From NCBI GenBank assembly GCA_946409675.1, contig CAMJXI010000050.1, positions 1 to 7,351 of the forward strand: DNA of 7,351 nucleotides, read 5' to 3'. The notes beneath the pieces were generated by a model. That model saw nothing but the letters and a program-made list of their open reading frames with translations, had not been told where the DNA came from and did not search any database. How positions within the stretch are numbered: position 1 is the stretch's first letter; each line of letters starts with the position of its first letter. The position numbers were made by a program, and so were the translations under genes. The stretch comes from an uncultured Lactobacillus sp. (GTDB lineage: Bacteria; Bacillota; Bacilli; Lactobacillales; Lactobacillaceae). Shown here in pieces: positions 3-7,351 of the stretch.

Positions 3-1037
3 AATGTTAATTACCGCTTTGTCTGGCTCCAACTACTCATTCCCGCACTTATTTTAACAAGTGGAACTAGTTTAGGACCAGAAGCGACTTTAGTTAGTTC
101 GACCGTTCTTTTTGGTGTCTGGATTCGTGACAAGATGCATTATTATGAAGTTAATTACACCGCCATTCGTTCCAAAACATGGTGGCTCCAATTTAAGGAG
201 CTCTATTTCACCAGAAATAATTTGGTGCAGGGCAAGTCGTCCAATAAAGATGAAGTAATTGATTCGACCTTCAGCCTCAGAGTCAAAAAGGTACTGAAGT
301 ATTTTTACTTCGCCAACGGCATAGCCTGGTTTGCCCTTTTTTATAAACTAAGTGGTCAACCTAGCCTAATTATTCGCATCGGCGAGAGTCACTGGCAACC
401 AAAAGCCTGGTTTATCATGATTCCCTTGTTAATCATGAGTTTTGGCTTCGGCAAGTTCTTGAACTTTTTAATGAAGAAACTCAAACAGATTATTCTCTTC
501 CGCTTTACCAACCAAACTTGGTTGATTGTTTTCGGAGGAATCATGATTTACCTCGCAAGTATCCTCGGACCCGAGATGCTCTTTTCCGGCCAACACAATT
601 TCCATCTCTTTAGTACCGGCTGGCAAAATTCACCGCTCTGGTATTTGGCATTTATCTCCCTCGGAAAGTTTGCCCTTCTATCTATTTGTAAGGTAACCGG
701 ATGGCTCGGTGGGGATATTTTCCCTGTTCTCTTTGCTTCTACGATTATTGGATTCATCGTGGCTTCTTGGCTACCGATGTTGGACCAGATTTTTGTTGTC
801 GTGATGGTTGCGATGGGGATTAGTACCGCTATCCTGAAATCAAGCATCTTAGTTGGTAGCCTGATGGGGATTATGTTTGCCCCAGTCTATTTGCTCCCAC
901 TAGTGATTGCAGCAACCGCCTTACTCTACATTTACCATCACTACAATAAGATTGATTTAAAACCAATTTTCATCAAAATCAGTGCTAAATTCAAAACAAT
1001 TAAACGCAGTTTTTTGGACAAAAATGTGACCGAATAA
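3..1037 (+). CDS. ClC-family chloride channel/antiporter, 5'-truncated by the window edge
   Basis: This is a membrane protein of the ClC family, which moves chloride or related anions, either as a channel or as an anion/proton exchanger. The reading frame is open from base 3, so the start lies upstream; 344 C-terminal residues are present. An internal ATG at 135 is not the true start, because the conserved LGPEATL motif (residues 24-30, bases 72-92) lies before it in the same frame. That motif aligns without gaps to the LGREGPT segment of ClC transporters, which places E27 at the gating glutamate. A second family motif, GGDIFP (residues 236-241), corresponds to the GGIFAP anion-filter motif. 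Several hydrophobic segments follow, then a short basic tail with no CBS domains. Family members without CBS domains are usually somewhat over 400 residues, so roughly 80-120 are probably missing. Ion preference (chloride or fluoride, channel or exchanger) cannot be told from this part. No convincing terminator follows the gene. Confidence 0.85.
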   Translation, partial: NVNYRFVWLQLLIPALILTSGTSLGPEATLVSSTVLFGVWIRDKMHYYEVNYTAIRSKTWWLQFKELYFTRNNLVQGKSSNKDEVIDSTFSLRVKKVLKYFYFANGIAWFALFYKLSGQPSLIIRIGESHWQPKAWFIMIPLLIMSFGFGKFLNFLMKKLKQIILFRFTNQTWLIVFGGIMIYLASILGPEMLFSGQHNFHLFSTGWQNSPLWYLAFISLGKFALLSICKVTGWLGGDIFPVLFASTIIGFIVASWLPMLDQIFVVVMVAMGISTAILKSSILVGSLMGIMFAPVYLLPLVIAATALLYIYHHYNKIDLKPIFIKISAKFKTIKRSFLDKNVTE

Positions 1038-1070
1038 ATTTGGTAAAACTTCTCTCTGATAATCTTGAAA

Positions 1071-1091
1071 TTAATATTAAGTTAATATTAA
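1071..1091. repeat. Tandem pair of a perfect 10-bp palindrome
   Basis: TTAATATTAA occurs at 1071-1080 and again at 1082-1091, separated by a single G. Each copy is its own reverse complement, and the copies are spaced 11 bp apart, about one helical turn. They lie just upstream of the likely pepN -10 element. This could be an operator for a dimeric regulator bound twice on one DNA face, or an AT-rich UP-like element. The sequence is very AT-rich, so chance occurrence is more likely than for a mixed sequence. No regulator is recognised. Confidence 0.45.
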
Positions 1092-1108
1092 AAACTTAAA
1101 TTATCGTG

Positions 1109-1120
1109 TATACTTATACT
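1109..1120 (+). promoter_or_regulatory. Probable pepN promoter (-10 region)
   Basis: Two overlapping-register -10 candidates, TATACT at 1109-1114 and TATACT at 1115-1120, lie 25-36 bp before the pepN start. No good -35 is present at the standard spacing: TATTAA at 1086-1091 is 17 bp before the first candidate but is weak, and it falls inside the palindromic repeat. GTATA and TATAC at 1108-1119 form a small inverted repeat over the element. A transcript starting near 1120-1127 would have a leader of about 20 bases, just enough for the ribosome site. Confidence 0.45.
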
Positions 1121-1131
1121 ATTAATGAGAA

Positions 1132-1137
1132 GAGAGG
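1132..1137 (+). promoter_or_regulatory. Ribosome binding site that fixes the pepN start
   Basis: GAGAGG ends 7 bases before ATG 1145. The longer alternative, GTG at 1106, would add 13 residues but has no ribosome site and lies upstream of or within the likely -10 element. ATG 1145 is therefore preferred, and it gives 844 residues, the usual length for lactobacillal PepN. Confidence 0.8.
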
Positions 1138-1144
1138 TTTATCA

Positions 1145-3679
1145 ATGATAAATACGCAACGTTTTTTTGAAATTTTCCACCCAGAACACTATACCCTAGC
1201 GTTTGATATTGATCGTGGAGCTAAGACCATTCAAGGCACTACAACCATTGTTGGTGAAGCCTTAGATACTGAAATTTATCTTCATCAAAAAGATTTAACA
1301 ATTTTGTCAGTTTACGCAAAAGAAACTGAACTAGAATTCGAAGTTTTACCTGACGATGAAGCAGTCAAAATCTTGCTTAAAGATGAAGGCGAAGTCACCC
1401 TAACTATTAAATATGAAACAAAATTGACTGATACAATGATGGGCATCTACCCATCTTATTACATGCTCGACGGCGAGAAAAAACAAATTATCGGTACCCA
1501 ATTTGAATCAACAGCTGCGCGCCAAGCTTTCCTATGCGTTGACGAACCAGAAGCCAAAGCTACCTTTGACCTCCAAATCAAGTTCGACGAACAACCCGGC
1601 GAAACAATTCTTGCTAACATGCCAGAAAACAAAGAAGTTGACGGCGTGCATTACTTTGACCGGACCCTTAAAATGTCTACTTACTTAGTTGCCTTCGTCT
1701 TTGGTGACCTCCAAAGTCAAATCGTCACAACCAAGAGTGGCATTAAAGTTGGTGTCTTTGCAACCAAGGCACATGCTGCTAACGAACTCGATTTTGCCAC
1801 TGATATTGCTAAACGCTCAATCGAATTTTTCGAAGACTTCTACCAAACACCATATCCACTTCCACAAGCTTATAATGTCGCTTTACCTGACTTTTCTGCT
1901 GGTGCCATGGAGAACTGGGGCCTGCTCACTTATCGTGAAGCTTACCTCGTCCTCGATGAAGACAAGACGGCTTTAGATACAAAACAACTCGTTGCAACTG
2001 TAATTGCCCATGAACTTGCGCACCAATGGTTCGGTGATTTAGTTACAATGAAGTGGTGGGATGACCTCTGGTTGAACGAAAGTTTTGCCAACATGATGGA
2101 ATACGTTGCTATCGATGCAATCGAACCTGATTGGAAGATTTGGGAAATGTTCCAAACTTCAGAATCACAAGCTGCTCTTTTCCGTGACGCTACCGATGGC
2201 GTGCAATCTGTTCACGTCCCAGTTAACAACCCTGGCGAAATCGATTCCCTTTTCGATGGTGCCATTGTTTATGCTAAGGGTGCCCGGATGCTTGTAATGG
2301 CGCGCGCAATGATTGGCGACGATGCCTTACGTAAAGGTTTGAAAGCTTACTTTGCTGAACACCAATATGGTAACGCAACAGGGGATGACCTCTGGCAAGC
2401 CTTTAGCGATGCTTCCGGAATTGATGTTGGAACAGTCATGAAGACTTGGCTCGAACAACCTGGTTACCCAGTTGTAACTGCTAGCCTCAAAGATGACAAA
2501 ATTGTCTTGTCACAAGAACAATTCTTCATCGGCGAAGCCAAACCACAAAACCGTCAATGGCAAATTCCTTTGGAAAGTAATTTTGCAGAACTACCAGAAA
2601 TCATGAAGGACCAAGAAGTCAGTGTTGCTGGCTACAAGGAACTCCGTGCTAAGTATGGTGTGCCTTTCCGTCTTAACGTGGGCAACAATTCCCACTTTAT
2701 CGTCCAATATGACGACGAATTGATGGCTGATATTTTGGCAAATACTGCTGCATTAAATTCCATCGATCAATTGCAATTATTACAAGCACAACAATTACTT
2801 GCTTCTGGTTCTAAAATTTCTTACGCCGACATTGTCCCATTGTTGGCTAAATTCCAAGACAGCACTTCAAACATCGTGAACGCTACAATCTTCCGCTTGT
2901 TAGGTGATTTGCAAGAATTCGTCGAACCAAAAACCGATGAAGAAAAGCAATTCAAGCTTTTTGTGAACCAGTTGAGCAAGGACCAAGTTGCTCGCTTAGG
3001 TTGGGCCAAGAAGGCCAACGAATCAATGGACGACAAACTTTCTCGTCGCTTTGTTTTGGCAAACGCACTTTACGCTGAAAATGCAGACGCAAGTGCAGCT
3101 GCTCACGAATTATATCAAGCAAACGAAGCTAACCCAGAAGCACTCGATGCCTCTGTTCGTTACTTAGTTTTGAAGAACGAAGTGAAGAACTACGGTTCTA
3201 AGGAATTATTAGAAAAACTAATTAAAGCTTATCAAACTACTTCAAATTCAAGTTACAAGACAGACTTGCGTGTTGCTGTCACAAGTACCAAAGATCCTGA
3301 ACTAGTTAAGTTAGTCATCTCCAAGTTTGAAGATGCTGATACCGTTAAACCACAAGATTTACGTGGTTGGTACGCAGGAGTTCTCGGTAACGACGCCGGC
3401 GAACAAGCAGCTTGGGACTGGTTACGTAATGACTGGTCATGGCTTGAAAAGACTGTTGGTGGAGACATGGAATTCACGACCTTCATCACAGTTACTGCTA
3501 ATGTCTTCAAAACGGCAAACCGTTTGGCCGAATTCAAAGAATTCTTCGAACCAAAACTCAACGTTCCTGGTTTTGAACGAGAAATCAAGATGGATACCAA
3601 CGTGATTGCAAGCCGTGTTGCATTGATTGCAGCCGGTAAGGATGAAGTTGCAGCCGCAGTTGCCAAAGCTTTGAATTAG
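1145..3679 (+). CDS. pepN: Aminopeptidase N (M1-family zinc metallopeptidase)
   Basis: PepN removes N-terminal amino acids from peptides in the cytosol. In lactic acid bacteria it is a major general aminopeptidase, working downstream of peptide uptake. The 844-residue product has the expected M1 layout: an N-terminal beta domain, the substrate-anchoring GAMEN motif at residues 253-257, the zinc site HELAH at 289-293 with the third ligand E312 exactly 18 residues later in WLNESFA, and the transition-state tyrosine Y376 in IVYAKGARM. A long helical C-terminal domain (about 540-844) matches the ERAP1_C-like region. There is no signal peptide, consistent with a cytosolic location. All catalytic residues are intact, and I see no frameshift. 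The gene has its own promoter region and ribosome site. The stop codon TAG is 17 bp before the next gene, with no terminator between, so the two are probably co-transcribed. Confidence 0.97.
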   Translation: MINTQRFFEIFHPEHYTLAFDIDRGAKTIQGTTTIVGEALDTEIYLHQKDLTILSVYAKETELEFEVLPDDEAVKILLKDEGEVTLTIKYETKLTDTMMGIYPSYYMLDGEKKQIIGTQFESTAARQAFLCVDEPEAKATFDLQIKFDEQPGETILANMPENKEVDGVHYFDRTLKMSTYLVAFVFGDLQSQIVTTKSGIKVGVFATKAHAANELDFATDIAKRSIEFFEDFYQTPYPLPQAYNVALPDFSAGAMENWGLLTYREAYLVLDEDKTALDTKQLVATVIAHELAHQWFGDLVTMKWWDDLWLNESFANMMEYVAIDAIEPDWKIWEMFQTSESQAALFRDATDGVQSVHVPVNNPGEIDSLFDGAIVYAKGARMLVMARAMIGDDALRKGLKAYFAEHQYGNATGDDLWQAFSDASGIDVGTVMKTWLEQPGYPVVTASLKDDKIVLSQEQFFIGEAKPQNRQWQIPLESNFAELPEIMKDQEVSVAGYKELRAKYGVPFRLNVGNNSHFIVQYDDELMADILANTAALNSIDQLQLLQAQQLLASGSKISYADIVPLLAKFQDSTSNIVNATIFRLLGDLQEFVEPKTDEEKQFKLFVNQLSKDQVARLGWAKKANESMDDKLSRRFVLANALYAENADASAAAHELYQANEANPEALDASVRYLVLKNEVKNYGSKELLEKLIKAYQTTSNSSYKTDLRVAVTSTKDPELVKLVISKFEDADTVKPQDLRGWYAGVLGNDAGEQAAWDWLRNDWSWLEKTVGGDMEFTTFITVTANVFKTANRLAEFKEFFEPKLNVPGFEREIKMDTNVIASRVALIAAGKDEVAAAVAKALN

Positions 3680-3696
3680 AAATTGGAGACACCAAA

Positions 3697-4074
3697 ATGG
3701 ATTTACCAGCGAAATTTTTAGAGGTCTTAAAATATGAGGGAGTTGTCTCAGTTGTCACTTGGACTCATGAAGGACCCCATATTACCAATACGTGGAATTC
3801 GTATTTGCGGTTTAACGACGAAAACGAAATTCTCATTCCGGCTGCTGGTTTCACGCATGCCGAATCTGATTTGGAGACGTATGATCACGTGCTTTTGACA
3901 GCTGGTGCGCGCCAAGTTATGGGCCACAACAACTATCAGGGGACAGGATTTCGAGTGCACGGTGAAGCTTGGTTCGAAGATAAAGGACCAAATTTTGAGC
4001 TGATGCATGACGCTTACCCATTTATTCGCGAAGTCTTAATTATTAAGCCGGAAGAATTTAAACAATTGCTCTAA
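3697..4074 (+). CDS. Small FMN-binding split-barrel protein (pyridoxamine 5'-phosphate oxidase-like family)
   Basis: The 125-residue protein belongs to the flavin-binding split beta-barrel superfamily. From memory it closely resembles the small FMN-binding protein of Desulfovibrio vulgaris, about 122 residues long. Shared features are FLEVLKYEGVV near the start (residues 7-17), GPHITNTWNSYL (26-37), TAGARQVMG (68-76) and GTGFRVHG (82-89). In this family the conserved NTWNSY and glycine-rich segments line the FMN phosphate and ring pocket. The protein is soluble, has no signal peptide, and probably forms a dimer. Its physiological reaction is unknown. Despite the family label it need not oxidise pyridoxamine phosphate, and it is much shorter than true PdxH (roughly 200 residues or more). 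GGAGA at 3685-3689, 7 bases before the ATG, supports the start. It lies 17 bp after pepN and just before the terminator at 4106, so it looks like the last gene of a pepN operon. Confidence 0.85.
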   Translation: MDLPAKFLEVLKYEGVVSVVTWTHEGPHITNTWNSYLRFNDENEILIPAAGFTHAESDLETYDHVLLTAGARQVMGHNNYQGTGFRVHGEAWFEDKGPNFELMHDAYPFIREVLIIKPEEFKQLL

Positions 4075-4105
4075 ATTGAGCTTTAACAAGTAACTTAGTT
4101 ATTTT

Positions 4106-4151
4106 AAAAAGGGAACTTAGATAACGTTATCGTTTTCTATGTCCTTTTTTT
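4106..4151 (+). terminator. Intrinsic terminator of the pepN-FMN protein unit
   Basis: A long hairpin starts 32 bases after the stop codon at 4074. The lower stem pairs AAAAAGGGA (4106-4114) with TCCTTTTTT (4142-4150), with one G-U wobble. After a bulged A4115, the upper stem pairs CTTAGATAACG (4116-4126) with CGTTTTCTATG (4131-4141), with two T-T mismatches. The loop is TTAT (4127-4130). The seven-base T run at 4145-4151 forms the 3' arm and the tail. The matching A run on the left means the hairpin could also act on the opposite strand. Confidence 0.75.
4120..4131. promoter_or_regulatory. 12-bp perfect palindrome, possible operator
   Basis: GATAACGTTATC is its own reverse complement, is centred on CG, and ends one base before the -35 position of the exporter promoter. 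CG-centred palindromes of this size are typical of LacI/GalR-family operators. It fits the catabolite (cre) consensus poorly, with about three mismatches. It also lies in the upper part of the terminator hairpin, so it may simply be part of that structure. Confidence 0.25.
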
Positions 4152-4161
4152 CTGCTATAGT
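4133..4161 (+). promoter_or_regulatory. Extended -10 promoter for the ABC exporter operon
   Basis: TGCTATAGT at 4153-4161 is an extended -10 element (TGn followed by TATAGT). At 17 bp spacing the -35 would be TTTTCT (4133-4138), which is weak, as is common when the extended -10 is present. Transcription would begin near 4167-4169, giving a leader of about 25 bases with AAGGAG at 4181-4186, 5 bases before ATG 4192. The promoter overlaps the 3' arm of the upstream terminator. Confidence 0.55.
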
Positions 4162-4191
4162 TATTAGTACTACTAAAATTAAGGAGTAATT

Positions 4192-5925
4192 ATGAAAGTC
4201 TTATTACCATACCTAAAACGTTATCAAAAAGATGCATGGCTCTCTTTTGCTTCCGTTTTAGTTGTTGTCTTTGCTAGTCTCTGGCAACCAAAAATATTGC
4301 AGACCATTATGGAAGCAATAATGAACCAAGATAAGTCAGTAATTATGGGCGAAGGCATCAAGATTATTGGCCTCGCCTTGATCGGAATCCTGGCTGGGAT
4401 TCTAAATACTATCTTTTCTGCCCGTGTGGCCTTGAATATCTCGACTGATTTAAGAGCCGACATGTTCAAAAAAATTCAAACTTTTGCCTACGCTGATATC
4501 GAAAAATTCAGTGCCTCAAACCTTGTGGTGCGGATGACTAACGATATTAACCAAGTGCAAATGGTTGTAATGGCCTTTTTCCAACAAGTAACGAGAATCC
4601 CAATCATGTTGGCTGGTGCCTTTATTCTGGCAATGATTACCATGCCCCAACAATGGTGGGTTGTCTTAATCATGCTGGCGATTATCATCGGCGTTTCCTT
4701 GTACTCATTCACGAGAATGGCGAAGCTCTTTGCGAGCACCCAAAAGGAAATTGAAGAAGTTAACACGCTTGCCCGTGAAAACTTGATGGGGATCCGAGTG
4801 GTTAAATCATTCGTCCAAGAACCAGCCCAAATTGAACAATTTTCAGAAACCAGTGACCGTTTGACCGATATCACTACCAAAATCGGTTACTTATTTGCGA
4901 TGCTGATGCCCGTGTTCTTCTTGGCCGCTCATTCAGCAATCGGTGTTTCAATCTTTATCGTCGGTAAGAATATTGTGGCGCACCCAGCTTACTTGGCTGC
5001 GATCAGCTCATTTACCACTTACATGATGATTATTCTCTTCTCTGTGATCAACGGCGGAATGTTGATGACTTTTGCCTCACGTGCCTTTATTTCACTCGGC
5101 CGGATGAGGGAAGTCTTGGACACTGAACCTTCAATGAAGTTCACCGCGGACAAGGACGTCGAAATTAACGGCGATATTACCTTTGATCACGTTGACTTCA
5201 CTTACCCTGGTGATGACCAAGCAACTCTGCAAGACTTGAGTTTCAAGGTATCTGCTGGTCAAATGATTGGGATTGTCGGAGCTACTGGCTCTGGGAAGAC
5301 CTCATTGGCTCAACTGATTGCGCGTTTGTATGATCCGCAATCAGGTGAAGTTCGCTTAGGCGACGTCAACATTAAGGATGTTCCGGAAAAAGAACTCCGC
5401 GAAATGATCGCCTTTGTTTTGCAAAGAGGGACTTTATTCTCCGGCACAATCTCAAGTAACCTACGTCAAGTTAAGGAAGACGCCACGATGTCGAACATGC
5501 AGTGGGCAGCTAACATTGCCCAAGCATCTGAGTTCATCGAACGCTTGCCTGAAAACTATGACGCTCCTGTTGAAGAACGTTCCGCTAACTTCTCTGGTGG
5601 GCAAAAACAACGTTTGGCGATTACCCGGGGAATTATTGCAGAACCTAAGATTTTAATTTTGGATGACGCAACTAGTGCCTTGGATGCTAAATCCGAAAAA
5701 CTCGTGCAAGAAGCATTGGACCGCGAATTGAAACACACCACCACTGTGGTAATTGCAGAAAAAATTTCTTCAATTATTCGCGCAGACCAAATTATCGTCA
5801 TGGATCAAGGTAAGCTAGCCGGAATTGGCACGCACCACGACCTCGTGAAGAATAACGAGATCTACCGTGAGATTTATCTCACCCAAAAGGCTAAGGAAGG
5901 GGGATTAGCAAATGCAGGACTTTAA
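4192..5925 (+). CDS. ABC exporter half-transporter, subunit with degenerate ATP site
   Basis: This 577-residue half-transporter has an N-terminal membrane domain of six predicted helices (roughly residues 15-35, 55-78, 130-150, 155-172, 240-258 and 270-295) fused to a C-terminal nucleotide-binding domain. The ATPase motifs are: A-loop Y338, Walker A GATGSGKT (363-370), Q-loop Q411, signature FSGGQ (467-471) and Walker B ILIL followed by D491 and D492, with D-loop SALD. The catalytic glutamate after Walker B is replaced by D492, and the H-loop histidine by E523 (in VIAEKISS). These changes mark the non-hydrolytic subunit of heterodimeric exporters such as LmrCD, BmrCD, EfrCD and TM287/288. The near-canonical signature should complete the working site of the partner. 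The last 14 bases overlap the next gene, which encodes the partner. Substrates in related pumps are drugs or lipophilic compounds; here the substrate is unknown. No regulator gene is adjacent within the window. Confidence 0.93.
   Translation: MKVLLPYLKRYQKDAWLSFASVLVVVFASLWQPKILQTIMEAIMNQDKSVIMGEGIKIIGLALIGILAGILNTIFSARVALNISTDLRADMFKKIQTFAYADIEKFSASNLVVRMTNDINQVQMVVMAFFQQVTRIPIMLAGAFILAMITMPQQWWVVLIMLAIIIGVSLYSFTRMAKLFASTQKEIEEVNTLARENLMGIRVVKSFVQEPAQIEQFSETSDRLTDITTKIGYLFAMLMPVFFLAAHSAIGVSIFIVGKNIVAHPAYLAAISSFTTYMMIILFSVINGGMLMTFASRAFISLGRMREVLDTEPSMKFTADKDVEINGDITFDHVDFTYPGDDQATLQDLSFKVSAGQMIGIVGATGSGKTSLAQLIARLYDPQSGEVRLGDVNIKDVPEKELREMIAFVLQRGTLFSGTISSNLRQVKEDATMSNMQWAANIAQASEFIERLPENYDAPVEERSANFSGGQKQRLAITRGIIAEPKILILDDATSALDAKSEKLVQEALDRELKHTTTVVIAEKISSIIRADQIIVMDQGKLAGIGTHHDLVKNNEIYREIYLTQKAKEGGLANAGL
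5893..5903 (+). promoter_or_regulatory. Ribosome binding site inside the upstream gene
   Basis: The purine-rich AAGGAAGGGGG ends 8 bases before ATG 5912 and lies within the last codons of the first exporter gene. An in-frame TAG at 5906-5908 rules out any earlier start, so ATG 5912 is the first possible start codon. Confidence 0.8.
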
Positions 5926-7306
5926 GAATGCAGCACGCTACTATCAACATTATTTAGCGAAGTTTAAATGGCAGTTCTTGTGGGCAACAATCCTCATCTG
6001 TATTAGTACAGCCGCAATCGTGATTGCACCAACCTACTTGGGTCGGGCAATTGAACAACTGACTACTTATTTACAACTATATGGCAACGAAACGACCAGA
6101 CACTTGGCTAATTTCTCCGCCTTTAACAAAACCCTAGCAATTTACTTAACGCTTTACTTCATTGATGCAGCAACCATCTTTATCGCCAGTCGTTACTTTG
6201 CGGTCATCACTGCAAAATCAACGGGTACGATGAGAATCGGTTTGTTCCGCAAAATGCAAAGAATGAAGATTCAATACTTCGATTCACATAGTGACGGCGA
6301 TATTTTGGCACGTTACACAAGTGACCTCGATAACATCTTCAACGCAATGAACCAAGCAATGCTCGAAATTTTCCTTTCAGTGACGCAATTCGTCGGAATC
6401 ATCATCGTGATGTTCCACGCGAACGTGACGCTCGCTTGGGTGACAATGGCAAGTACGCCAATCACCATTGTTTTGGCAATTTTCGTCATGAAAAAAGCTG
6501 GAACGAGTGTTAACCAACAACAAGATGAGATGGGTCGTTTGAACGGCTACATCAACGAACAAATCACCGGACAAAAGAGTATTATCACGAACGGCTTGCA
6601 AGCTGAATCAGTTAAGGGCTTTGAGGTCGTGAACAACGACTTCAAGAAGGTCGCACTCCGTGGCCAAATCTGGTCCGGTTCGCTTAACCCATTGATCGTT
6701 GGGATGTCACTTTTGAACAACGCTATTGTGATTTTTGCCGGCTCATGGTTAGTTCTAAGTGGTAACTTAGGCGCTGGGGCAGCTCTTGCTACTCTGGTTG
6801 TGTTTGTGAACTACGCTAACCAATATTACCAACCAATTCAATCGTTGACTTCACTTTATGGCATGATCCAATTGGCCATTACTGGGGCACGAAGAATTGA
6901 TGAAGTTCGGAATCAACCTGACGAAGAGAAACCCGTTGATGGTAATGAATTTACTGGTATTCAAGAAGAAATTAACTTGAACGACATTAAATTCAGTTAT
7001 AACCCGGGCAAAGAAATTCTTCATGGAGTTTCGATTAACGTTCCTAAGGGTCACATGGTCGCTTTAGTTGGACCAACCGGTTCTGGTAAGACGACTGTCA
7101 TGAACTTGCTTAATCGCTTCTATGACGTCGATTCTGGCTCGATTAAGTTTGATGAGACGGATATCAAAACCTTCGACCTCGATTCATTACGTAAAAATGT
7201 GGGGATTGTCTTACAAGATCCGCAATTATTTACGGGTACAATTGCCGACAATATTCGTTTTGGTAACCCCGATGCAAGTATGAGTCGAGTGGTGGCGGCT
7301 GCTAAG
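5912..7306 (+). CDS. ABC exporter half-transporter, partner subunit, 3'-truncated at contig end
   Basis: Residues 1-465 of the partner half-transporter are present. A membrane domain with six expected helices (clear hydrophobic runs near 21-43, 72-97, 150-195 and 258-305) includes the family-typical RMKIQYFDSHSDGDILARYTSD stretch at about 117-138, just after the second helix. The nucleotide-binding domain begins near residue 350: A-loop Y363, Walker A GPTGSGKT (387-394) and Q-loop Q435 in VLQDPQLFTGTI. The genomic sequence ends at K465 in the VVAAAK segment. About 120-140 residues are therefore missing, including the signature, Walker B, D-loop and H-loop. By analogy with heterodimeric exporters this should be the subunit with the intact catalytic glutamate, but that part cannot be seen. 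The 14-bp overlap with the first subunit suggests translational coupling and equal production. Bases after 7306 continue in frame but are adapter, not gene. Confidence 0.93.
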
Positions 7307-7351
7307 AGATCGGAAGAGCACACGTCTGAACTCCAGTCACCAACGGAAATC
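7307..7351 (+). other. Illumina TruSeq adapter contamination with probable index
   Basis: From 7307 the sequence is the 34-base TruSeq 3' adapter read from insert into adapter. It begins AGATCGGAAGAGC and ends CTCCAGTCAC at 7340, with no mismatch to the adapter as I remember it. The next eight bases, CAACGGAA (7341-7348), sit where the i7 index belongs. The last three, ATC, match the start of the constant sequence that follows the index. In the gene's frame it reads RSEEHTSELQSPTEI, a peptide known from adapter-contaminated protein records. It is a library artefact and marks the end of real sequence. Confidence 0.98.

Follow-up and report, generated by a model that had tools for sequence, protein, structure and literature searches.

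An Illumina TruSeq adapter and sample index at the end of a Lactobacillus draft contig, with adapter tails at 111 contig ends of the same genome

Introduction

Adapter sequence in public genome assemblies has been described before. Moeller et al. 2024 (BMC Genomics 25:1033, PMC11536531) reported adapter contamination in 1,110 of 15,657 public assemblies (p below 0.01). In the sections of that paper drawn on here, the adapter stands at contig ends and its reverse complement at contig starts, tails of both read-1 and read-2 type occur, and contigs are broken by the adapter. All of these features are also present in the genome studied herein. The published method used a 12-base core in MGnify genomes, whereas a 13-base core was used here in one genome. 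The adapter at the contig end is this published fault, nothing new in kind, and an assembly artefact rather than biology. A relation between tail length and base differences was found here, and the same sections of PMC11536531 make no mention of it.

A similar library is described in parts of an orchid RNA study (PMC6207065), a TruSeq-type single-index library with an 8-base i7. The index CAATGGAA is among its sample indexes, and the flanking adapter letters match those found here. The genome studied herein resembles that library in the adapter letters and in CAATGGAA; however, the study is one of orchid RNA, and an index in common shows use only, not a shared origin.

The window, which is the whole stretch of DNA analyzed, is contig C50 with a length of 7,351 bases. 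It belongs to a draft genome of 172 contigs and 1,175,876 bases that is recorded as 66% complete.

Results

The terminal bases of the window were compared with the TruSeq read-1 read-through adapter. All 34 bases at 7307-7340 were identical to the adapter with zero mismatches, followed by the eight bases CAACGGAA and then by ATC, where the contig ends (Table 1). By hand arithmetic with equal base use, about 5e-17 exact copies of this 34-mer would be expected by chance in 7,351 bases, both strands counted. The longer tails of contigs C78 and C108 run on behind the index as ATCTCGTAT. The window shows the read-1 tail structure, in which the 34-base adapter is followed by an index and then ATCTCGTATGCC on the outward strand, as far as the first 3 of the post-index bases. 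When both strands were searched with the 13-base core at up to 2 mismatches, the single match was at 7307-7319 on the forward strand with 0 mismatches, and no core was found at the contig start. This search is not proof by itself, because at least one match was also obtained in 18 of 200 shuffles (0.10 matches on average). The 45 terminal bases are almost certainly the Illumina TruSeq adapter with a sample index, most likely derived from untrimmed read-through of a short insert. The first-pass annotation had proposed such an adapter at the contig end, followed by eight bases and ATC, and the comparison verified it. No paper containing the translated adapter tag SEEHTSELQS was found in a literature search.

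Table 1 Positions of the adapter parts, the contig overlap and the genes within the window.
Feature	Position	Strand	Evidence
TruSeq read-1 read-through adapter, synthetic, 34 bases	7307-7340	+	Exact match, 34/34; 54 exact 34-mer copies in the same genome
8-base i7 index, reads CAACGGAA; library index likely CAATGGAA, differing at 7344	7341-7348	+	39/41 tails
ATC, first three post-index bases, from the adapter on the P7 side	7349-7351	+	Longer tails; oligo printed in PMC6207065
69-base overlap with the end of C24	7238-7306	+	68 identical, difference at 7270
ABC-transporter gene, genomic part, 465 codons, cut by the adapter	5912-7306	+	Open reading frame list; Pfam; C24; 593-aa relatives
Chloride-channel gene, truncated at the contig start	Within 3-7306		Pfam
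M1-family aminopeptidase	Within 3-7306		Pfam
Small PNPOx-like protein	Within 3-7306		Pfam
Overlapping pair of ABC-transporter genes, of which the second is the gene at 5912-7306 listed above	Within 3-7306		Pfam

The boundary between genomic and synthetic DNA is located by a second contig of the same genome, C24 (11,279 bases). The reverse complement of window 7238-7306 forms the end of C24, identical at 68 of 69 positions with the mismatch at 7270. At 7307 the window has A and C24 has C. Past this position C24 carries on the reading frame of the gene starting at 5912 into a conserved ABC-transporter C-terminus. In the window the adapter stands in the place of this real genomic continuation, and the two contigs differ from 7307 onward. 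The relatives compared, five loci from other genomes (L254, with 26 residues only, was left out), continue past the boundary much like C24, and their full-length frames are 590-593 aa. The 593-aa database protein P0001, with 99% identity over 98% of the query, has the same continuation as C24 with one residue different; its source is not given, and it may be non-independent of this genome. Because C24 parts from the window at 7307 and the relatives continue alike, genomic sequence ends with base 7306, and residues 466-480 of the frame are false. These 15 residues are added by the adapter to the frame, which is open from 5912 to 7351. The earlier claim that the contig truly ends at 7306, and that any feature beyond is false, is in agreement with this result.

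Pfam assigned ABC_membrane and a partial ABC_tran to the frame starting at 5912. Among the best 120 of 7,974 matches, the best named relatives of this ABC transporter are from Lactobacillaceae genera such as Lacticaseibacillus, Companilactobacillus and Lactiplantibacillus, with 61-72% identity, which makes a lactic acid bacterium the likely source. The remaining window, from 3 to 7306, has an ordinary gene content by Pfam. At 7270, inside the last 37 genomic bases, the window has C and C24 has T; this difference may be a read error, as is likely at 7344, or it may reflect variation between strains. Elsewhere in the genome, an adapter tail at bases 1-45 of contig C45 (L361) likewise cuts a second ABC-transporter gene, whose first 271 residues share 53% identity with the ABC transporter in the window.

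The 13-base core was then counted in the whole genome. It was found in 111 copies, 55 forward and 56 reverse, and the reversed control pattern gave 0 copies in the same genome. Every end was read, and all 111 copies were at contig ends and faced outward. The excess of the core at contig ends by which contamination is recognized in the manner of Moeller et al. 2024 is thus found here, as 111 copies versus 0 in the control, all outward. Of these copies, 110 begin no more than 54 bases from the contig end and one begins 88 bases from it. At least one adapter tail is carried by 89 of the 172 contigs, 22 of which have tails at both ends. By the letters after the core, 57 copies are of the read-1 type and 51 of the read-2 type; in the remaining three, the contig stops after 13, 16 and 17 bases of adapter. 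The tails total 4,933 bases, about 0.42% of the draft genome.

The exact read-1 34-mer has 54 copies in this genome. In a family search of 201 genomes, namely this one and 200 others drawn from a larger group, the read-1 34-mer was the pattern searched, and it was present in 0 of the 200 others. The first-pass annotation had named the same bases in closely related genomes as one of two findings that would speak against an adapter; for the 34-mer, no such occurrence was seen in these 200 genomes. The 45 bases could alternatively be genuine genome, such as a natural repeat or a gene end resembling the adapter, and the ABC-transporter frame is indeed open through 7351. However, C24 has a different and conserved continuation from 7307, the 57 read-1 and 51 read-2 tails adjoin unrelated sequence at contig ends, and the 34-mer is missing from the 200 other genomes of the family. 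The probability of genuine sequence is close to nil. A natural repeat or gene end was rejected on the continuation in C24, the index structure and these 200 genomes without the 34-mer.

Chimeric ligation of adapter to genomic fragments, or a construct in the sample that carried the adapter, would likewise place the adapter beside genomic DNA at scattered sites, and the junctions would then be real molecules. In contrast, all 111 tails open with the first bases of the adapter and terminate the contig, and C76 alone has letters past the full adapter. Such chimeras or constructs are very improbable, and read-through of short inserts is the preferred origin of the tails. The C76 tail itself (L282) is 88 bases long and holds the read-2 adapter at full length, altered at several bases; beyond the adapter come an A-rich stretch and then about 20 further bases, as if the read had overrun the fragment end. 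Of the 111 bases directly preceding the adapter, 55 were G, 29 were C, 17 were T and 10 were A. This skew may reflect a fragment-end or ligation preference, or the merging of tails.

The index was compared between all tails that hold the full read-1 adapter, eight bases and ATC. There are 41 such tails; 39 read CAATGGAA, one (C78) reads CAATGGAG, and the window alone reads CAACGGAA, which is one base off the index of the 39, at 7344. Because 39 of the 41 full tails read CAATGGAA, this is likely the index of the library, and CAACGGAA is most likely a read error. The first-pass annotation had suggested that the index could identify the library. The 8-base index followed by ATC is present; however, CAACGGAA probably fails to identify the library, given the 39 of 41 tails with CAATGGAA. 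A sample-sheet look-up with CAACGGAA would probably fail.

The tails could also come from read-through in two co-assembled libraries, with CAACGGAA correctly read and belonging to a second library beside the CAATGGAA library. The index CAACGGAA is unique to the window among the 41 tails, as would be seen with a second library. Indexes within a set usually differ by more than one base, and a single base separates CAACGGAA from the index carried by the 39 other tails. One-base differences are also seen elsewhere in the tails, in 10 of 111 in all. In the literature search, no paper carrying CAACGGAA was found, and CAATGGAA was found in one. A second library is unlikely, and a misread of CAATGGAA is the preferred explanation. 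We take CAATGGAA to be also a member of a commercial 96-index set. The read-2 tails go straight from the adapter into AGATCTCGGTGG; because they carry no i5 bases, the library looks single-indexed from these sequences. None of the 243 adapter tails among the public-contig matches listed starts with CAATGGA or CAACGGA.

The tail lengths were concentrated around one value. The median was 45 bases, and 85 of the 111 tails were within 43-47 bases. Compared with the consensus adapter, 101 tails were clean and 10 of 111 were differing. The longest clean tail had 49 bases (n=101), and all tails of at least 50 bases (7 of 7) differed from the consensus. The differing and the clean tails were separated in length by a one-sided rank test that was picked after the lengths had been seen (p about 9e-5).

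Discussion

The tails can be explained by the passage of reads through short inserts. When an insert is shorter than the read, sequencing would pass into the adapter, and untrimmed reads bearing the adapter would then enter the assembly. In a k-mer graph, error-free tails would have k-mers in common and would fuse into one adapter hub. Where a path runs from genomic sequence into adapter, it would halt at this shared hub, which would give a common length near 45. Tails with a base error would stay unmerged and extend further. The odd base at 7344, and perhaps the one at 7270 too, would likely be errors in one or a few supporting reads.

The limit of 49 bases for clean tails, with base differences in all tails of at least 50, is as expected if clean tails merge into the shared path. 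Against merging, the window tail differs from the consensus yet has 45 bases, and two further differing tails have 39 and 49 bases. The spread of the clean tails also speaks against it, with an observed sd of 1.43 (for the 92 clean tails with 41 bases or more, the 9 shorter clean tails being left out) that is wider than the simulated value of about 1.0, although the simulated lengths were narrowly spread as well. In the simple simulation, k is confounded with the number of junctions: with between a thousand and a million junctions it gave a k of about 50 to 55, and at a million a k near 55. We tentatively suggest that the tails might serve as a readable log of the assembly. The length would reflect the k-mer (about 55 if about a million junctions had the adapter hub in common), the consensus index would name the library, and the tails with errors would flag contig ends supported by one or a few reads.

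For users of this genome, about 4,900 bases of the draft are synthetic and are spread over 111 contig ends. The genes cut by the adapter lose their true ends and gain false residues, 15 of them in the ABC-transporter frame of the window. Matches, proteins or primers based on 7307-7351 would be wrong. At 66% completeness and 172 contigs, the genome could well gain contiguity if the reads were trimmed and reassembled. C50 overlaps C24 over 69 bases, a result for one contig end of the 111, and the two contigs might merge once the tail is trimmed.

Adapter copies were similarly found in other public contigs. The scans gave at least 243 copies in at least 239 stretches, with at least 119 stretches from species genomes and at least 120 viral. 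Among the 243 copies listed, 132 had a parsable index, and in 239 no more than 220 bases lay between the far end of the adapter and the end of its stretch. In one 5.5 Mb record of Mycolicibacterium houstonense (NZ_LT546207.1, stretch 1936001-1944000; L104), the 34-mer occurs well away from either end.
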